From contig WGMW01000006.1 of NCBI GenBank assembly GCA_016124845.1, positions 1 through 64,000 on the forward strand: a stretch of 64,000 bases of DNA, given 5' to 3'. Below the pieces are notes generated by a model, which was not told the origin of the DNA, searched no databases, and saw only the letters and a program-made list of their open reading frames with translations. A program made the position numbers and the translations under genes. Origin of the DNA: Flavobacteriales bacterium. Its GTDB lineage: Bacteria > Bacteroidota > Bacteroidia > UBA10329. Shown here piece by piece: positions 10,920 through 36,474 of this stretch (position 1 is the first letter of the stretch; each line of letters begins with the position of its first letter).

Positions 10920-13900
10920 TCACCATTGTATGCCAAGGTCGTAGATGTCTTTGGACGTGCTCTTGTCGTTCTTGAAGTAGTACACACCGCCCCAATTCCA
11001 TTTCACACGCGTGTAACGGTCAGCAACGCCTTCTTTGCGTTTGACGATGACATGCTTGATCTCGCGGTTCTCCTTCACTTCAGATTCTTCGGTCACGCCC
11101 ATTGGATATGATGCTGCAAGATCCATCTGATACTGCGTTGGCTTCTCCTCCATCGAAGCTGACGCGGCTTTCTTCTGCTCCTCGATGGCTTCGAGTGCCT
11201 TTCGTTTCTCCTCGTATTCAGCCTTCAGCCTTGCGCGGACCTTCTCTTCGTATTCGGCACGGTTTGACTCAGCTGAACTCGCGGCAAGCTCCTTTGCCTT
11301 CTTCTCGAACTCCATCTTGTTGCGATAGTTCTCTTCTTTGAGAGCGATCTCTTCCTTTCGCTTCTGCTCTTGCTCTTCGCGCAGTTTACGTTCGAGTTCC
11401 TTCTTATCCTGCGCAATGCGACCTGCTTCCGCCATTTCTTCTGCGTTGCGGATGCGTTCCTGCTCCTCTGCCTTTTCCTGTTCCGCTTTCAACTTCTGCG
11501 CACGCTCGATCTTCTCTTGATCCAAGCGCTGCTGCTCCAGTTTCCGCTCTTCTTCTGCCTGCTCCCGAAGCTGTTTCCATTCTTCGGCAAGTGCCTTTTT
11601 ACGCTCATTCTCCTCTTCTTCGCGCAACCTTCTGGCCTCAAGTTCTGCGGCACGTTCGGCATTCTTTTCGGCAGCAATACGGGCCACTTCCTCTGCACGT
11701 GCCATTTCAGCCTCATGCTCCAATCGTTCCTGTTCAGATTTTTTCTTGCGCGCCTCTTCGGCCAGTTCCCGCGCTTCTTGCTGCTTTGAAAGTTCCTCTT
11801 CTCTGCGTTCCCAAGCCTCAAGTTCCTGCCGCTTGCGCGCTTCCATCATAGCCACTTTCTGTGCACGCTCCTGCTCCTTTCTGCGTTCTTTCAGTTCCTG
11901 CTCACGCTCAAATTGTGCCTCTGCCGCAGCTTCCTGTTGATCGGCCAACTGCTTTTCCTTCTGCTCTTTTTCAAATTCCGTTTGGAACTCTTTTTTCAAT
12001 TTCGCCTCAACCTCCGCTCTCATCCGCGTTTCGCGCTCGGTCATTTCTTTTTCCAAGATGGCTGATGCCTCGGCCTCCATTCGTTCCTCATCCGCTTGCG
12101 CTATGGAATCTTGCTCAGCCTGCAACTGCTTACATTTCCTTTCGGCAGCCTGCTGACGGGCGATCTCTTCCATCTCCTGCTGCTGACGCAACCGCTCGGC
12201 CTCGGCTTCGCGCTTGGCGGCAAGTTCCGCAGCTTCTTGCTGACGTTGACGCTCCAACTCGGCCAACCGAGCTTCCTCTGCCTTGCGTTGCTCTTCCGCT
12301 TTTTGGCGGGCTTCTTCCTCAGCCTTTCTCCTTGCCTCAGCAGCCAATGCCTCTTGCTCAGCTAAGAGTTCGCGTCTTTCCTGCTCCTGCTCACGAACCT
12401 CTGCCAGTCTTCTTTCTTCCGCTTCTTTCGCCAGTCGCTCAGCATCTTCCTGCTGCTTTCTTCTGGCCTCCTCCTGAAGACGCTTTTGCTCTTCCGCCAT
12501 ACGTTTTTCCTCCTCGGCTTTGGTCTTCGCCAATTCGGCCTGTTTCTGGGCCTCCTCCGCGGCCTTTCGTTCCTGCTCCTCCTTCAAACGCTGTTGCGCT
12601 TCCAGTTCGGCCATTTCTTCAGCGGCTTTGCGTGCTTCCTCCGCTTTGGCTGCAGCTTCTGCCTCTTCACGTAGTTTCTTCTCCTGTTCTTGACGCGCCT
12701 TTTCTTCGGCCGCGAGTTTCTCAGCTTCGACCTTAGCTGCGGCCTCTGCCTCCGCTTTCAATCGCTTCTCTTCTGCTTTTCGGGCCTTCTCCTCGGCCGC
12801 TAAACGTTCTGCTTCCTCCTTGGCCTTCTGTTCAGCCAACTTATTCTCTTGGGCCTTTTGTTCCACCTCTGCTTTGGCAGCAGCCTGCTGTTCTTCGCGA
12901 AGTCGTTTTTCCTCTTCTAACTTGGCCTTTTCTTCAGCTATCCGTTTTTCAGCTTCGGCTTTTGCGGCCAGTTCTGCTGCTTCTTGCTGACGTTTTTCTT
13001 CTTCCAGGCGTGCCTGTTCTTCTAACGCACGTTTTTCGGCCTCGGCCTTGGCTGCTGCTTCCGCTTCCGCTTTCTGTCGCTTCTCCTCTTCCTTACGGGC
13101 TTTTTCCTCGGCAGCCAGACGCTCTGCTTCTTCCTTGGCTTTCTGCTCCGCAACACGTTTCGCTTCCTTCTCAGCTTCTTCTTTCAGACGCTGCTCCTCG
13201 GCCAGCCGTTCTGCCTCCGCTTTGGCGGCTGCTTCCGCTTCGGCCTGAAGTCGTTTTTCTTCTTCCAGGCGTGCCTGTTCCTCTGCCGCACGTTTTTCAG
13301 CCTCGGCCTTGGCGGCTACCTCCGCTTCCGCTTTCTGTCGCTTCTCCTCTTCCTTGCGGGCCTTCTCCTCGGCTGCCTGACGCTCTGCTTCTTCCTTGGC
13401 CTTTAGATCCGCAACGCGTTTCGCTTCCTTCTCTGCCTCTTCTTTCAGACGCTGCTCCTCGGCCAGCCGTTCTGCCTCTGCTTTGGCGGCTGCTTCCGCT
13501 TCGGCCTGAAGTCGTTTTTCCTCTTCCAGGCGTGCCTGTTCTTCTACTGCACGTTTTTCAGCCTCGGCCTTCGCTGCTGCTTCCGCTTCCGCTTTCTGTC
13601 GCTTCTCCTCTTCCTTGCGGGCCTTCTCCTCGGCTGCCTGACGCTCTGCTTCTTCCTTGGCCTTTAGATCCGCAACGCGTTTCTCTTCCTTCTCAGCTTC
13701 TTCTTTCAGACGCTGCTCCTCGGCCAGCCGTTCTGCCTCTGCTTTGGCGGCTGCTTCCGCTTCGGCCTGAAGTCGTTTTTCCTCTTCCAAGCGTGCCTGT
13801 TCTTCTGCCGCGCGCTTTTCGGCCTCGGCCTTAGCTGCTGCCAGTTCCTGTTCCTTCTGATCGATCTTCGCAATCAATGCTTTCGCTTCGTCACCTTCTG

Positions 13901-16184
13901 GTTTCAACGAAACTGCTTCGTTCAGCTTTTCGCGGGCCTGATCGAATTTTCCTTTTTCAAAGAGATCTGAGCCCGATTGAACAAGGGTAGCTACCTGCTT
14001 GTCCAGTTTTTCCTGTGCGCGTTTTTCCTCTTCCGCCTTGGCGATCAAACCATCAACCTCTGCCATCTTGGCCTTGGCCGCAGCATCATCAACACCCGCT
14101 TTAGAGGCTGCCTCATATTTTGCTCTGGCCTCATCGAATTTTGAAGCTGATTGAAGCGTAGCTCCTTCGCTCATCAAAGCGTTGAACTGTTCCTGCTGTT
14201 TGGCAAGCTCCTCTGCCTTTCGTTTTTCTTCCTCCGCTTGCTTTGCAGCCTGTTCCTGCTCCAGTCGGTCTATCTGCTCTACAAGTCCTTTCGCCTCTTT
14301 GCTTTCTGGCATCAACGCCAAAGCATCATTTGCTTTCTGTCGTGCTTCGCTGAGCTTGCTTTTCTGGACGAGTTGAACGCCATCATTAACCAGATCGGCC
14401 ACTTCCTTGGCCAATTTCTCTTTTGCCCGCTGCTCCTGCTCTGCTTTCGCGATGAGGCTTTCAACCTCCGCCAAATGCGCTTTTGCACTGGCATCATCAA
14501 CCCCAAGTTTGGAAGCGGCTTCATATTTGACCTTGGCCTCGGTGAACTTGGAAGCCGATTGCAACGAACCGCCCTCTGCAATAAGTTTGGTGAATTCCTC
14601 TTGCTTGGCAGCTAACTGCTGCGCCTTTTTCTGCTCTTCCTCAATTCGTGCACGGACTGCTTGAATACGGTCTTTGGTCTCCTTGTATTCGGGATCCAAA
14701 GCCAGCGCATCTTGATACTTTCCTTGCGCTTGTTGGAGTTCTCCAGCCGTGAGCAACTTGTCTCCGTCCAGTAGCAAAGCCGCAATTCTGAGTTTACGCT
14801 CCTGTTCTTCCTTCTGCTTTTTGGCCATCTCTGCAAGAATTGCATCAATGGCTTTGATGCGTTCCTTGGGCAGATCGGCATCAGGAATCACATCACCTGC
14901 ATCTTGGTACAGCCCGCGTGCCTCTTCATATTTTTCGGCAGATTCAGCCTTTTGTGCATCTGCGATCAATTGATCGAACTGCTGCTTGAGTTTGAGTTTC
15001 TCCTGTTCCTGCTTGGCAATTGCTGCGATGGTCTCTTTCAGCTCCTTGAGTTTGGCAACAGGTTCATCCGAATTGGGATTCACATCCGCAGCGGTCTCAT
15101 AGATGTTGATGGCGGCCTCGTATTTTTCCTTTGCCGTCAGATCGGCTGCCTGCGCCATCAGATCATTGAACTGCTTTTCTTTCTTGGCACGTTCTTCCTG
15201 CTCGGCTTTCACCTTGGCCATTCCCTTTTCTGCCTGAGCCACCTTAGAAGCCGCATCCTTTCTATCGGGGAAAATTCTTGAGGCTTCTTCCAGTTTGGCC
15301 TTCGCTTGCTCGTACTCTTCCTTAGCAAGAAGTTGGTCTGCCTCTTTCAGAATGGAAGCATAGTTGTCCTCCTTGGTCTTGAGCTCCGCTGCCTCTTTGG
15401 CTTTCTGTTCTTCCGCCAGCCGTTTGGCCTCCGCTTCAGCCTCTTTGCGTTTGCGTTCCTCCTCGGCCAACCGTTCCGCTTCGGCTTTCGCAGCTGCTTC
15501 AACCTCTGCTTTCAGACGCTTTTCTTCTTCCTCCTTCGCTTTTTTCTCAGCCGCCAAACGCTCTGCTTCTTCCTTGGCCTGAGCTTTTGCCGCTGCTTCG
15601 GCCTGCTTGGCCTGTTCCTTGGCCAACTGCTCGGCCTCCTTGCGCAATCTTTCCTCTTCCTTGAACTTGTCCTCGTTCAATTTCTCCAATTCCTCGAAAA
15701 CCTTCTCTTCCTGCTTCTGGAATTCCATGGAATAATCGAGGTCGTAATCGAACTCATTGTGGCGCTCGTTGTAATGCACCTTGGCCACTGGATTGGAGAA
15801 TATGGCCTTGTTCAGCCCAGATTGATCCTGAAAAAGCTCTACGATAAAATCGAAATCCCACACCATGGAAGCATCTGCGGGCACAGCCGTGTTGAACTCG
15901 ATCTTCTTGGCAACATAACCTGGTTTGCTCACATCCAGCATGTATGTGGCATCAGGCTGGAAGAAAAAGTTGAACTTACCGTTGGATTCTGTGGTCAGTG
16001 TCTGATCTACCTTTCCGTTCTTATAAAGCGTGAGTTTTGCTCCATCCAATCCTTTCCAGCCTTCCTTTACGGAACCTGAAATATCCAGACCGCGGTCCTG
16101 CGCCATCGATACCGATGTCACCGAAACGAACACAACCAGAAGCAGAAACGTAAAAATCCGTGTCATCAATCTACTCAACGCCAT
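10920..16184 (-). CDS. Giant Ala/Glu/Lys-rich coiled-coil protein with carboxypeptidase-like N-domain
   Basis: This 1754-residue exported protein has a signal peptide in residues 1-28, ending SMAQ. A carboxypeptidase-regulatory-like beta domain follows at about 30-105 (DISGSVKEGWKGL; SNGKFNF), then a short conserved linker ending FDYDLDYS. Residues about 270-760 hold roughly eight TPR-like helical pairs spaced about 75 residues apart. From about 760 to 1650 the protein is nearly pure A/E/K/R/Q heptad sequence, predicted to be a long coiled coil or single alpha helix, including an 87-residue tandem repeat. The last about 65 residues are a distinct domain with KWNWGGVYYFKN. It is probably periplasmic or envelope-spanning. 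Function is unknown; related Bacteroidota proteins share the N- and C-terminal parts. Confidence 0.75.
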   Translation of the reverse strand: MALSRLMTRIFTFLLLVVFVSVTSVSMAQDRGLDISGSVKEGWKGLDGAKLTLYKNGKVDQTLTTESNGKFNFFFQPDATYMLDVSKPGYVAKKIEFNTAVPADASMVWDFDFIVELFQDQSGLNKAIFSNPVAKVHYNERHNEFDYDLDYSMEFQKQEEKVFEELEKLNEDKFKEEERLRKEAEQLAKEQAKQAEAAAKAQAKEEAERLAAEKKAKEEEEKRLKAEVEAAAKAEAERLAEEERKRKEAEAEAKRLAEEQKAKEAAELKTKEDNYASILKEADQLLAKEEYEQAKAKLEEASRIFPDRKDAASKVAQAEKGMAKVKAEQEERAKKEKQFNDLMAQAADLTAKEKYEAAINIYETAADVNPNSDEPVAKLKELKETIAAIAKQEQEKLKLKQQFDQLIADAQKAESAEKYEEARGLYQDAGDVIPDADLPKERIKAIDAILAEMAKKQKEEQERKLRIAALLLDGDKLLTAGELQQAQGKYQDALALDPEYKETKDRIQAVRARIEEEQKKAQQLAAKQEEFTKLIAEGGSLQSASKFTEAKVKYEAASKLGVDDASAKAHLAEVESLIAKAEQEQRAKEKLAKEVADLVNDGVQLVQKSKLSEARQKANDALALMPESKEAKGLVEQIDRLEQEQAAKQAEEEKRKAEELAKQQEQFNALMSEGATLQSASKFDEARAKYEAASKAGVDDAAAKAKMAEVDGLIAKAEEEKRAQEKLDKQVATLVQSGSDLFEKGKFDQAREKLNEAVSLKPEGDEAKALIAKIDQKEQELAAAKAEAEKRAAEEQARLEEEKRLQAEAEAAAKAEAERLAEEQRLKEEAEKEEKRVADLKAKEEAERQAAEEKARKEEEKRQKAEAEAAAKAEAEKRAVEEQARLEEEKRLQAEAEAAAKAEAERLAEEQRLKEEAEKEAKRVADLKAKEEAERQAAEEKARKEEEKRQKAEAEVAAKAEAEKRAAEEQARLEEEKRLQAEAEAAAKAEAERLAEEQRLKEEAEKEAKRVAEQKAKEEAERLAAEEKARKEEEKRQKAEAEAAAKAEAEKRALEEQARLEEEKRQQEAAELAAKAEAEKRIAEEKAKLEEEKRLREEQQAAAKAEVEQKAQENKLAEQKAKEEAERLAAEEKARKAEEKRLKAEAEAAAKVEAEKLAAEEKARQEQEKKLREEAEAAAKAEEARKAAEEMAELEAQQRLKEEQERKAAEEAQKQAELAKTKAEEEKRMAEEQKRLQEEARRKQQEDAERLAKEAEERRLAEVREQEQERRELLAEQEALAAEARRKAEEEARQKAEEQRKAEEARLAELERQRQQEAAELAAKREAEAERLRQQQEMEEIARQQAAERKCKQLQAEQDSIAQADEERMEAEASAILEKEMTERETRMRAEVEAKLKKEFQTEFEKEQKEKQLADQQEAAAEAQFEREQELKERRKEQERAQKVAMMEARKRQELEAWERREEELSKQQEARELAEEARKKKSEQERLEHEAEMARAEEVARIAAEKNAERAAELEARRLREEEENERKKALAEEWKQLREQAEEERKLEQQRLDQEKIERAQKLKAEQEKAEEQERIRNAEEMAEAGRIAQDKKELERKLREEQEQKRKEEIALKEENYRNKMEFEKKAKELAASSAESNRAEYEEKVRARLKAEYEEKRKALEAIEEQKKAASASMEEKPTQYQMDLAASYPMGVTEESEVKENREIKHVIVKRKEGVADRYTRVKWNWGGVYYFKNDKSTSKDIYDLGIQW
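13027..13826. repeat. 261-bp in-frame tandem repeat (three copies plus part of a fourth)
   Basis: The marker word GCACGTTTTT, or a close variant, recurs at 13027, 13288, 13549 and 13810, exactly 261 bp apart. A second word, GCCAGCCGTT, recurs at 13201, 13462 and 13723. Each unit encodes 87 residues of the coiled coil. Copies differ mostly at single bases, so they are recent or homogenised. The length is a multiple of three, and copy-number change would keep the frame. Confidence 0.9.
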
Positions 16185-16273: not shown

Positions 16274-17422
16274 ATGAGCAAATATCACCATTCGCCTGCA
16301 TTAAGCTTCTGGGAGATCGATCAGTATCTGCGTGATGTTGACCTGTTGATCGTGGGAAGCGGCATTGTAGGTCTCACGACCGCCATTTATTACAGAAAAA
16401 AGCACCCGAAACATAAGGTGGTCATTGCCGAAAGAGGCATCCTTCCATCAGGCGCAAGCACGAAAAATGCGGGGTTTGCCTGTTTCGGTAGCCCGAGCGA
16501 ACTGCTCGCAGATCTGAAAACATCCACCGAAGAAGAGGTGTTTGCAACCGTTACCAAACGCGTAAATGGCCTGAATGCATTGCGGAATCTGTTGGGAGAT
16601 GAAGCCATAGGATTGGAAATGTGCGGTGGATATGAGCTCTTCTTGCAGTCGGATCTCGAGCTATTTGAAGAAAGCAATGAGAAGTTGAATTATCTCAACC
16701 AACGCATTTGGGAATCGACAGGGCTTCGAAACACGTATTCCGTTGAGAATAACAGCAAGCGATTCGGATTTCATAGTGTGGAACATCTTATTCTAAACCA
16801 GCACGAAGGTGCCATCGATACGGGAAAAATGATGCGTTCGCTTGTTGATCTGGCACAGGCTGCGGGCGTCATCATTCTCAACTCGCTGGAAGTAGAAGAA
16901 TTTCAGGATAATCGGCACTCCGTGGAGGTCAAATTCCAAAATGGGTGGATCATCAGTTGTAGACAACTTCATATCGCCACAAATGGGTTTGCCACAAAGT
17001 TGCTTCCCCAACTGGATGTGAAACCTGCCAGAGCACAGGTACTGATAACCGAGCCCATCGCAAACCTCAAGATCAAAGGAACCTTTCACATGAATGAAGG
17101 TTTCTACTATTTCAGAAACGTGGGCGACCGTTTGCTTTTTGGAGGTGGCCGCCAGTTGAGTTTTGACGAGGAAACCACTTCTGAAATCGGCCTGACCGAA
17201 CTGATTCAAACCGACCTTGAAAAGAAGTTGCGGGAGATCATTCTTCCCGAAACGGAATTTGAAGTAGACCACCGCTGGGCAGGTATCATGGGAGTTGGAA
17301 CCTCCAAAAAGACTATCGTCCGAAGCCTGTCTGATAATGTGAGTTGTTCCGTAAGGCTGGGTGGAATGGGTGTTGCCATTGGAACCAGCATCGGCCATGA
17401 GTCGGCACAGCTGATCGGATAA
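16274..17422 (+). CDS. FAD-dependent oxidoreductase (DAO family)
   Basis: This 382-residue flavoprotein of the D-amino-acid oxidase/glycine oxidase superfamily shows the FAD-binding GSGIVGLTTA in a beta-alpha-beta fold starting near residue 25. A second conserved segment STKNAGFACFGSP follows at about 62-75, and the C-terminal FAD/substrate segment is HRWAGIMGVG then GGMGVAIGT. The substrate is probably an amine or amino acid, but this is inferred. The start at 16274 gives about 20 residues before the dinucleotide-binding strand. It is divergent from the coiled-coil gene and convergent with the putative RNA whose terminator follows its stop. Confidence 0.85.
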   Translation: MSKYHHSPALSFWEIDQYLRDVDLLIVGSGIVGLTTAIYYRKKHPKHKVVIAERGILPSGASTKNAGFACFGSPSELLADLKTSTEEEVFATVTKRVNGLNALRNLLGDEAIGLEMCGGYELFLQSDLELFEESNEKLNYLNQRIWESTGLRNTYSVENNSKRFGFHSVEHLILNQHEGAIDTGKMMRSLVDLAQAAGVIILNSLEVEEFQDNRHSVEVKFQNGWIISCRQLHIATNGFATKLLPQLDVKPARAQVLITEPIANLKIKGTFHMNEGFYYFRNVGDRLLFGGGRQLSFDEETTSEIGLTELIQTDLEKKLREIILPETEFEVDHRWAGIMGVGTSKKTIVRSLSDNVSCSVRLGGMGVAIGTSIGHESAQLIG

Positions 17423-17456
17423 AACAAAAGCGGAGACCGATCTGTCGATCAATCTC
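17421..17456 (-). terminator. Rho-independent terminator of the candidate RNA
   Basis: On the minus strand GCGGAGATTGATC pairs with GATCGGTCTCCGC over 13 bp (two U-G pairs) around a GACA loop, followed by TTTTGTTTT. On the plus strand no T tract follows, so it works leftward. Confidence 0.85.
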
Positions 17457-17742
17457 CGCCTCGCTTCGAATTCAGACCGTGGTCTGAAACCAGCGCCAAG
17501 CTGCTGTTATTACGGCTTCCCCTTCCTTTTCGGCAGCAAGCTGCTTACTCCGTTGGCTTTCCCGACTTCTGCTTTACCGAAGTTCCGCTTCTTTCAGTTC
17601 TGCCTCACCTCTCTAACCCTAAGGCTTCAAGGTTTCCGAGTGTCTTTCTTCTGAATCTCCGTAGAGTTTCTCGGAAAGTGGTCTATCAACCAGCCCTTTA
17701 TCTCTCACTTGGTAGAACCAAAGGTATGTCAGCAATACCTTT
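17421..17742 (-). ncRNA. Candidate structured non-coding RNA, about 320 nt, family not recognised
   Basis: This gene-free segment looks like an independent leftward transcript. It ends in a 13-bp terminator hairpin (17424-17456) followed by TTTTGTTTT. Reading 5' to 3' on the minus strand, several more helices can be drawn. These are AAAGGTAT/ATACCTTT at the 5' end, a long-range TTTCCGAG/CTCGGAAA pair, GAAG/CTTC, GCAG-CUUG-CTGC with a stable CUUG tetraloop, and TTCAGAC-CACG-GTCTGAA. Upstream, TTTG lies 18 bases before AAATTTTG, a near match to the -33/-7 promoter. No open frame fits. It lacks the hallmarks of tmRNA, RNase P RNA, SRP RNA and 6S RNA. The 5' end is approximate. Confidence 0.6.
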
Positions 17743-17796
17743 GCAGCCAAAATTTTCAGCTCAGTTTTTTAAACAAAGAATGAACCGCTCTGTAAA

Positions 17797-36242: not shown

Positions 36243-36368
36243 TTCTGCACGTGGAAACGCCTCCCTGACGGGTTAGGAAGCACTTTTCTGTACAAGAATC
36301 GACATCCTGACTTGTCAGGGAGGCATTTCTTGACGCAGAAACGCCTCCCTGGCCGTGCGTTAGGGATG
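36243..36368. repeat. 42-bp unit present three times in tandem
   Basis: Units start at 36243, 36285 and 36327. Each holds TTCTGNACGNGGAAACGCC- or TTCTTGACGCAGAAACGCC-like words followed by a CTGAC/CTGGC stretch, with CCTCCCTG at the ends. The middle copy is the most diverged. Within copies, GGCATTTC and GAAACGCC can pair. The even spacing suggests a mobile or slipped repeat rather than a gene. The last copy runs into the adjacent Flavo-1-like RNA. Confidence 0.65.
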
Positions 36369-36474
36369 GCAGCGGCATCCTTTTTCCAGTACCCTTTGAG
36401 AACATCAGGGTACTGGAAAAAGATATAGCGGACAGCCCGGCCCCGCGATGCTGTGCGTGGGAAGCAATACCAAA
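36357..36474 (+). ncRNA. Flavo-1-like RNA motif
   Basis: This region contains a 15-bp perfect hairpin: CTTTTTCCAGTACCC (36380-36394) pairs with GGGTACTGGAAAAAG (36408-36422). It is flanked by GCGTTAGGGAT on the left and AGCCCGGCCCC on the right. AGCGG occurs on both sides (36371 and 36427), forming a symmetric internal loop, and a GC-rich hairpin follows at 36440-36470. The arrangement agrees with the Flavo-1 RNA described from Flavobacteria, as I recall it. The function of that RNA is unknown. A promoter-like element for the downstream gene lies after it, so it may be a separate transcript. Confidence 0.65.

Follow-up and report, generated by a model that had tools for sequence, protein, structure and literature searches.

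Within the 64,000-nucleotide stretch of Flavobacteriales DNA that we analysed (the window), one interval very probably encodes a stand-alone, highly structured non-coding RNA that would act in trans, possibly with the RNA helicase/RNase PhoH2, and that is one of a family of RNAs of 290-670 nt, among which the window member is compact. We regard the existence of this family as nearly certain; it is apparently undescribed and missing from Rfam 15. A large, strongly conserved class of non-coding RNA spread over many families of Bacteroidia would be an addition to the few large structured RNAs known from bacteria. Moreover, its repeated location next to phoH2, the gene of a conserved enzyme, makes a specific function open to test, and the models built here (R1-R3) can be taken up by annotators.

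The RNA gene and its fold

Read directly, the minus strand of positions 17760-17421 consists of a promoter of the Bacteroidota type, a folded region (about 294 nt) and, at the end, an intrinsic terminator (Table 1). Known promoters of Bacteroidota have the form TTTG and TAnnTTTG, and the pair formed by TTTTG (17752-17748) and TACCTTTG (17726-17719), with a spacer of 21 nt, fits this form. The preliminary description had proposed a minus-strand RNA of about 320 nt with its own promoter and terminator. Both signals are present where it had them, as is the folded region between them, but the predicted length of the RNA is about 294 nt instead, because the predicted start falls near 17714. The U-tract of the terminator runs into the stop codon of a convergent open reading frame (16274-17422) that resembles FAD-dependent oxidoreductases; the terminator (17420-17460) may serve both directions, ending the RNA as well as the oxidoreductase gene.

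Table 1. Elements of the RNA gene in window coordinates, from promoter to terminator
Feature	Positions	Strand	Basis
-33-like promoter element TTTTG	17748..17752	-	Sequence; TTTGG-like element at same site upstream of most homologues
-7-like promoter element TACCTTTG (TAnnTTTG)	17719..17726	-	TANNTTTG at same site in nearly all homologues
Structured non-coding RNA of about 294 nt, from the predicted start through the terminator U-tract	17421..17714	-	Genus homologues; fold z -3.7; covariation
P1 5' strand CCAAGU, pairs with GCUUGG 17501-17496	17707..17712	-	Paired in all 21 members (at least 7 families); two-sided changes in 3/6 pairs
J1/2, purine segment with conserved sequence GAGRGAUAAAA (GAGAGAUAAAG here)	17696..17706	-	Near-invariant across families
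P2 5' strand GGCU, pairs with AGCC 17517-17514	17692..17695	-	Two-sided changes in 4/4 pairs; pairing in 88% of cells
P3 hairpin, loop GNRA-like in most relatives	17680..17691	-	8-sequence covariation analysis
P4 hairpin, inner stem 17666-17657, YNMG-type loop	17644..17678	-	5/8 pairs changed on both sides
PX 5' strand CUC, partner 17522-17520	17638..17640	-	3/3 pairs covary
P5 hairpin, variable sequence	17608..17632	-	Outer pairs in 8/8; inner stem re-formed by different sequences
P6 hairpin, purine-rich internal loops	17555..17604	-	8-sequence covariation analysis
P7 hairpin, CUUG loop	about 17533..17544	-	8-sequence covariation analysis
P2 3' strand AGCC	17514..17517	-	P1/P2 alignment of 21 members
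J2/1 and P1 3' strand, GUAAUAACAGCA + GCUUGG	17496..17513	-	AAUAACNGYARYUUGG conserved across families
P8 hairpin, CACG (YNCG-type) loop	17472..17487	-	4/4 modelled pairs covary, 18 sequences
Intrinsic terminator, hairpin 17460-17430 and UUUUGUUUU 17429-17421	17421..17460	-	Fold; 4/7 modelled pairs covary, 18 sequences

The fold is more than chance: the minimum free energy of the window's minus strand (-98.6 kcal/mol) lies at z -3.7 against shuffles, and the helices are kept by compensatory change. The opposite strand folds at z -2.5. We drew the structure by hand from an alignment of eight sequences from the genus, giving 37 pairs in 10 helices, with 97.6% of cells paired. Two-sided changes occur in 16 of the 37 pairs, above every shuffle (mean 7.4, sd 1.8). 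The covariation score of 0.463 exceeds that of shuffled alignments (0.291) and of slid ones (at most 0.169). Since the structure was drawn from these eight sequences it leans towards them, and the shuffle control and the families found later are the better test. The covariation among homologues for which the preliminary description had asked is strong under both shuffle and slide controls, and the pairings that it had drawn exist: the long-range helix is P1, the CUUG hairpin P7 and the CACG hairpin P8. The structure belongs on the minus strand because the modelled cells contain 36 G-U but only 3 A-C combinations, which agrees with the strand first proposed. Its reported purine-richness extends across the genus members (58-63% purine).

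In overall architecture, P1 and P2, with a conserved purine-rich internal loop between them, close a multibranched body; downstream of it come a hairpin with a YNCG cap and then the terminator. Within this body PX is found among relatives as CUC/GAG, CCC/GGG, CCU/AGG and GUC/GAC. There is no shared or conserved open reading frame across the homologues, as expected from the earlier remark that no peptide frame was visible.

Distribution across Bacteroidia

A homologue occurs in all six near-complete genomes of the window's genus, and two incomplete ones (70% and 83%) gave no match. Four homologues, at 70-76% identity in a DNA search, are syntenic. Model R1 revealed a second subclade, with two copies in G003 and one in G008, where the RNA lies between two genes, one AMP-ligase-like and one TonB-receptor-like, or next to one of them, and not by the window's neighbours. 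The two subclades therefore keep the RNA at different loci. The G003 copies (L011 and L013) have diverged, and each has as its neighbour one of the two genes found on either side of the lone G008 copy, as if a tandem pair had been split by rearrangement. Further R1-class matches at L015 and L017 were rejected, since they fall within coding-like sequence, and L014 was discarded on the same ground. Public records list the genus as MAGs of freshwater Bacteroidota under the label Flavobacteriales or, in some cases wrongly, Chryseobacterium. Two lake MAG contigs (L018 and L023) are titled Chryseobacterium gleum; their RNA sequence and GTDB placement are those of the window's genus, and the names look wrong.

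Beyond the genus, the full-length model R2 matched a genome of a different family (G053, E 8.8e-15), in which the RNA is flanked by a dnaK-like and an msrB-like gene and has both its promoter and its terminator. In family f23 the RNAs are 550-620 nt long, with 5' and 3' ends identical in type to those of the window RNA; in short R2 matches there, the partner initially assigned to the 5' end was a mimic close by, AGUAGCUUGCUGC, and not the true 3' end. A search of 395 genomes for the 5' motif matched 19 genomes, most with a matching 3' end and terminator downstream, compared with a handful of scattered matches for the reversed pattern. Matches in G273 and G365, for which the 3' end was not found, were set aside. 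A model of the 3' end built from 18 sequences (R3) and run over 395 genomes added genomes of families f2, f14, f5 and f4, where the 5' end was found too. E-values are rough and many of the genomes are MAGs; many R3 matches above E ~0.001 resemble unrelated terminators and were not counted, and matches in f62, f47 and f3 were not assigned to the family.

Taken together, six or more additional Bacteroidia families have P1 followed by GAGRGAUAAAAG, a 3' end of the form AAUAACNGUARCUUGG, a tetraloop hairpin and a terminator. The window RNA itself has P1 with GAGRGAUAAAAG and AAUAACNGUAR, P8 and the terminator. P1 is paired in 21 of 21 members despite sequences as different as GCAGUU/AACUGC, UCAAGU/ACUUGA, ACAAGC/GCUUGU and CCAAAC/GUUUGG, and 88% of P2 cells are paired in the same set, the linker of this alignment being artificial and not counted. 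Between the long and short forms, the comparison covered P1, P2 and the 3' domain, and the homology applies to these parts. One long f14 RNA contains three copies of a 32-nt module (L091 3996-4346). On viral contigs the pattern matched 55 times, and we take these matches as chance because in no case does a paired 3' end lie within 1.3 kb.

A related form is found in 11 genomes of family f40, where an RNA of 340-620 nt follows a TTGACA-type promoter. It begins with UCAAG-ACGAMGUACUUUGACAG or a relative of it and ends with ACUUGAUGC, a YNCG hairpin and a terminator. Because P1 and the 3' domain are held in common but J1/2 differs, we consider the f40 RNA to be probable kin of the family.

Comparison with known RNA classes

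The preliminary description could fit no known bacterial RNA class to the interval, and this holds: the Rfam scan gave no match, ARAGORN no tmRNA, and RNase P RNA lies elsewhere in the genome. Specifically, Rfam 15, searched with gathering and with permissive E-value thresholds, identified no family at the window locus, at four loci of the genus or at many distant homologues. The true RNase P RNA (RF00010) is at G000:C20:24879-25207, and one was found in eight of nine genomes. ARAGORN was negative for tmRNA, and for tRNA, at the window locus and ten homologous loci. A resemblance to a CRISPR direct repeat (RF01323) amounts to 15.2 bits against a cut-off of 39 (E 2.9), on the plus strand and with no array. 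Models of GOLLD, ROOL and OLE gave no match. We found no matching description in the open-licence literature; an earlier one may exist outside it.

6S RNA forms a long rod interrupted by a central bubble. Like 6S and 6S-Flavo (RF00013, RF01685), the RNA is a stand-alone gene in Bacteroidota, but neither model matches it, and a rod with one central bubble is at odds with the covarying, multibranched structure. The 6S models gave no match at the locus or anywhere in the order, with weak controls: the 6S-Flavo search matched no control genome and RF00013 missed a Bacteroides control. This null result does not show that 6S is absent, because control genomes also went without a match.

Possible roles and the PhoH2 neighbourhood

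The location of the RNA is not tied to one gene, and its own terminator and changing flanks suggest that it would act in trans, as a stable folded molecule that is presumably transcribed constitutively. Its conserved single-stranded purine segments may be engaged in tertiary contacts or in binding a protein. PhoH2 would be the best candidate for such a partner, and the RNA could be its substrate, its scaffold or its inhibitor.

The RNA adjoins a gene for a PIN-PhoH RNA helicase/RNase (PhoH2) in four families (f23, f12, f40 and one f2 genome), in three relative orientations. The gene is divergent from the RNA at all seven f23 loci and in the f12 genome G019, downstream on the same strand at six of six examined f40 loci, with the RNA 35-530 nt upstream of it, and upstream on the same strand in the f2 genome G009. 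Near the G009 locus there is also a SAM riboswitch (RF00162; L093 6480-6584, minus strand). The neighbouring proteins carry PIN_4 and PhoH domains (Pfam), and the NCBIfam PhoH2 model matched them below its cut-off. PhoH2 is nearly universal in the class Bacteroidia; among 40 phoH2 loci in other genomes, G019 alone had a supported neighbouring RNA, and the adjacency is absent from the window's own genus and several other families. It may reflect an inherited neighbourhood with local inversions rather than function, since a single inversion of either the RNA or phoH2 from a divergent ancestor explains the three layouts.

We hypothesize a functional link between PhoH2 and the RNA, and put its chances clearly below even. 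The mycobacterial PhoH2 combines an RNase with a helicase domain, and its antitoxin, PhoAT, is a protein (PMC4826407). There too the gene of a partner adjoins phoH2 (PMC4826407), but the phoH2 operon itself encodes the PhoAT protein, whereas the RNA gene has its own promoter and terminator and is adjacent in some families only. More tentatively still, the RNA could be a dedicated partner of PhoH2 in Bacteroidota, restraining or guiding the enzyme in the role that PhoAT has in mycobacteria. If true, a conserved enzyme of RNA degradation would be coupled to a large structured RNA of a new class.

Two other roles are each unlikely, though worth weighing. The RNA could be a regulator that base-pairs with mRNAs, a common role among bacterial sRNAs and one compatible with its stand-alone gene and the purine-richness of the genus members. 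By description it is similar to Rfp18, an intergenic structured sRNA of flavobacteria that regulates proteases in Flavobacterium (PMC9723704). Counter to this, the size of 290-670 nt, the closed, complex architecture and the junction sequences kept across families suggest a structural rather than a seed-type RNA. Alternatively, and with similarly modest probability, the RNA could form an ornate assembly of RNA only, with no protein partner. GOLLD, ROOL and OLE are likewise stand-alone RNAs of several hundred nucleotides with elaborate conserved secondary structure, and their function is poorly understood (PMC12286853). The large, elaborate and modular body, the repeated module of the f14 member and the hairpins with YNCG, CUUG and GNRA-like loops would suit such an assembly. 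Arguing against it, the RNA matches none of the ornate RNAs in Rfam by sequence or covariance, the family is found on chromosomes of Bacteroidia and viral contigs gave no paired copy, and quaternary structure is here a supposition.

That the RNA functionally replaces 6S RNA by binding RNA polymerase is very improbable. The order-wide lack of matches to RF00013 and RF01685, the RNA's own promoter and terminator, and an open loop of 11/12 nt held within helices by P1, J and P2 are compatible with this role, but the multibranched RNA with its large variable body differs from the long 6S rod, and the weak controls leave the absence of 6S itself unestablished. Least credible is a cis-acting leader, riboswitch or 3' element of a neighbouring gene: the same-strand f40 layout upstream of phoH2 would suit it, but the RNA has its own terminator, holds no fixed position upstream of a gene family, and has flanking genes that differ among subclades and families and three orientations near phoH2. 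We favour a stand-alone RNA that would act in trans.

Two other features of the window can be recorded. A protein of 1754 aa (10920-16184, minus strand) consists mostly of a very long Glu/Lys/Ala-rich, coiled-coil-like region and has homologues at the equivalent place in the genus. A Flavo-1 RNA (RF01705) lies at 36347-36446 on the plus strand, scoring 57.5 bits, above the gathering cut-off.
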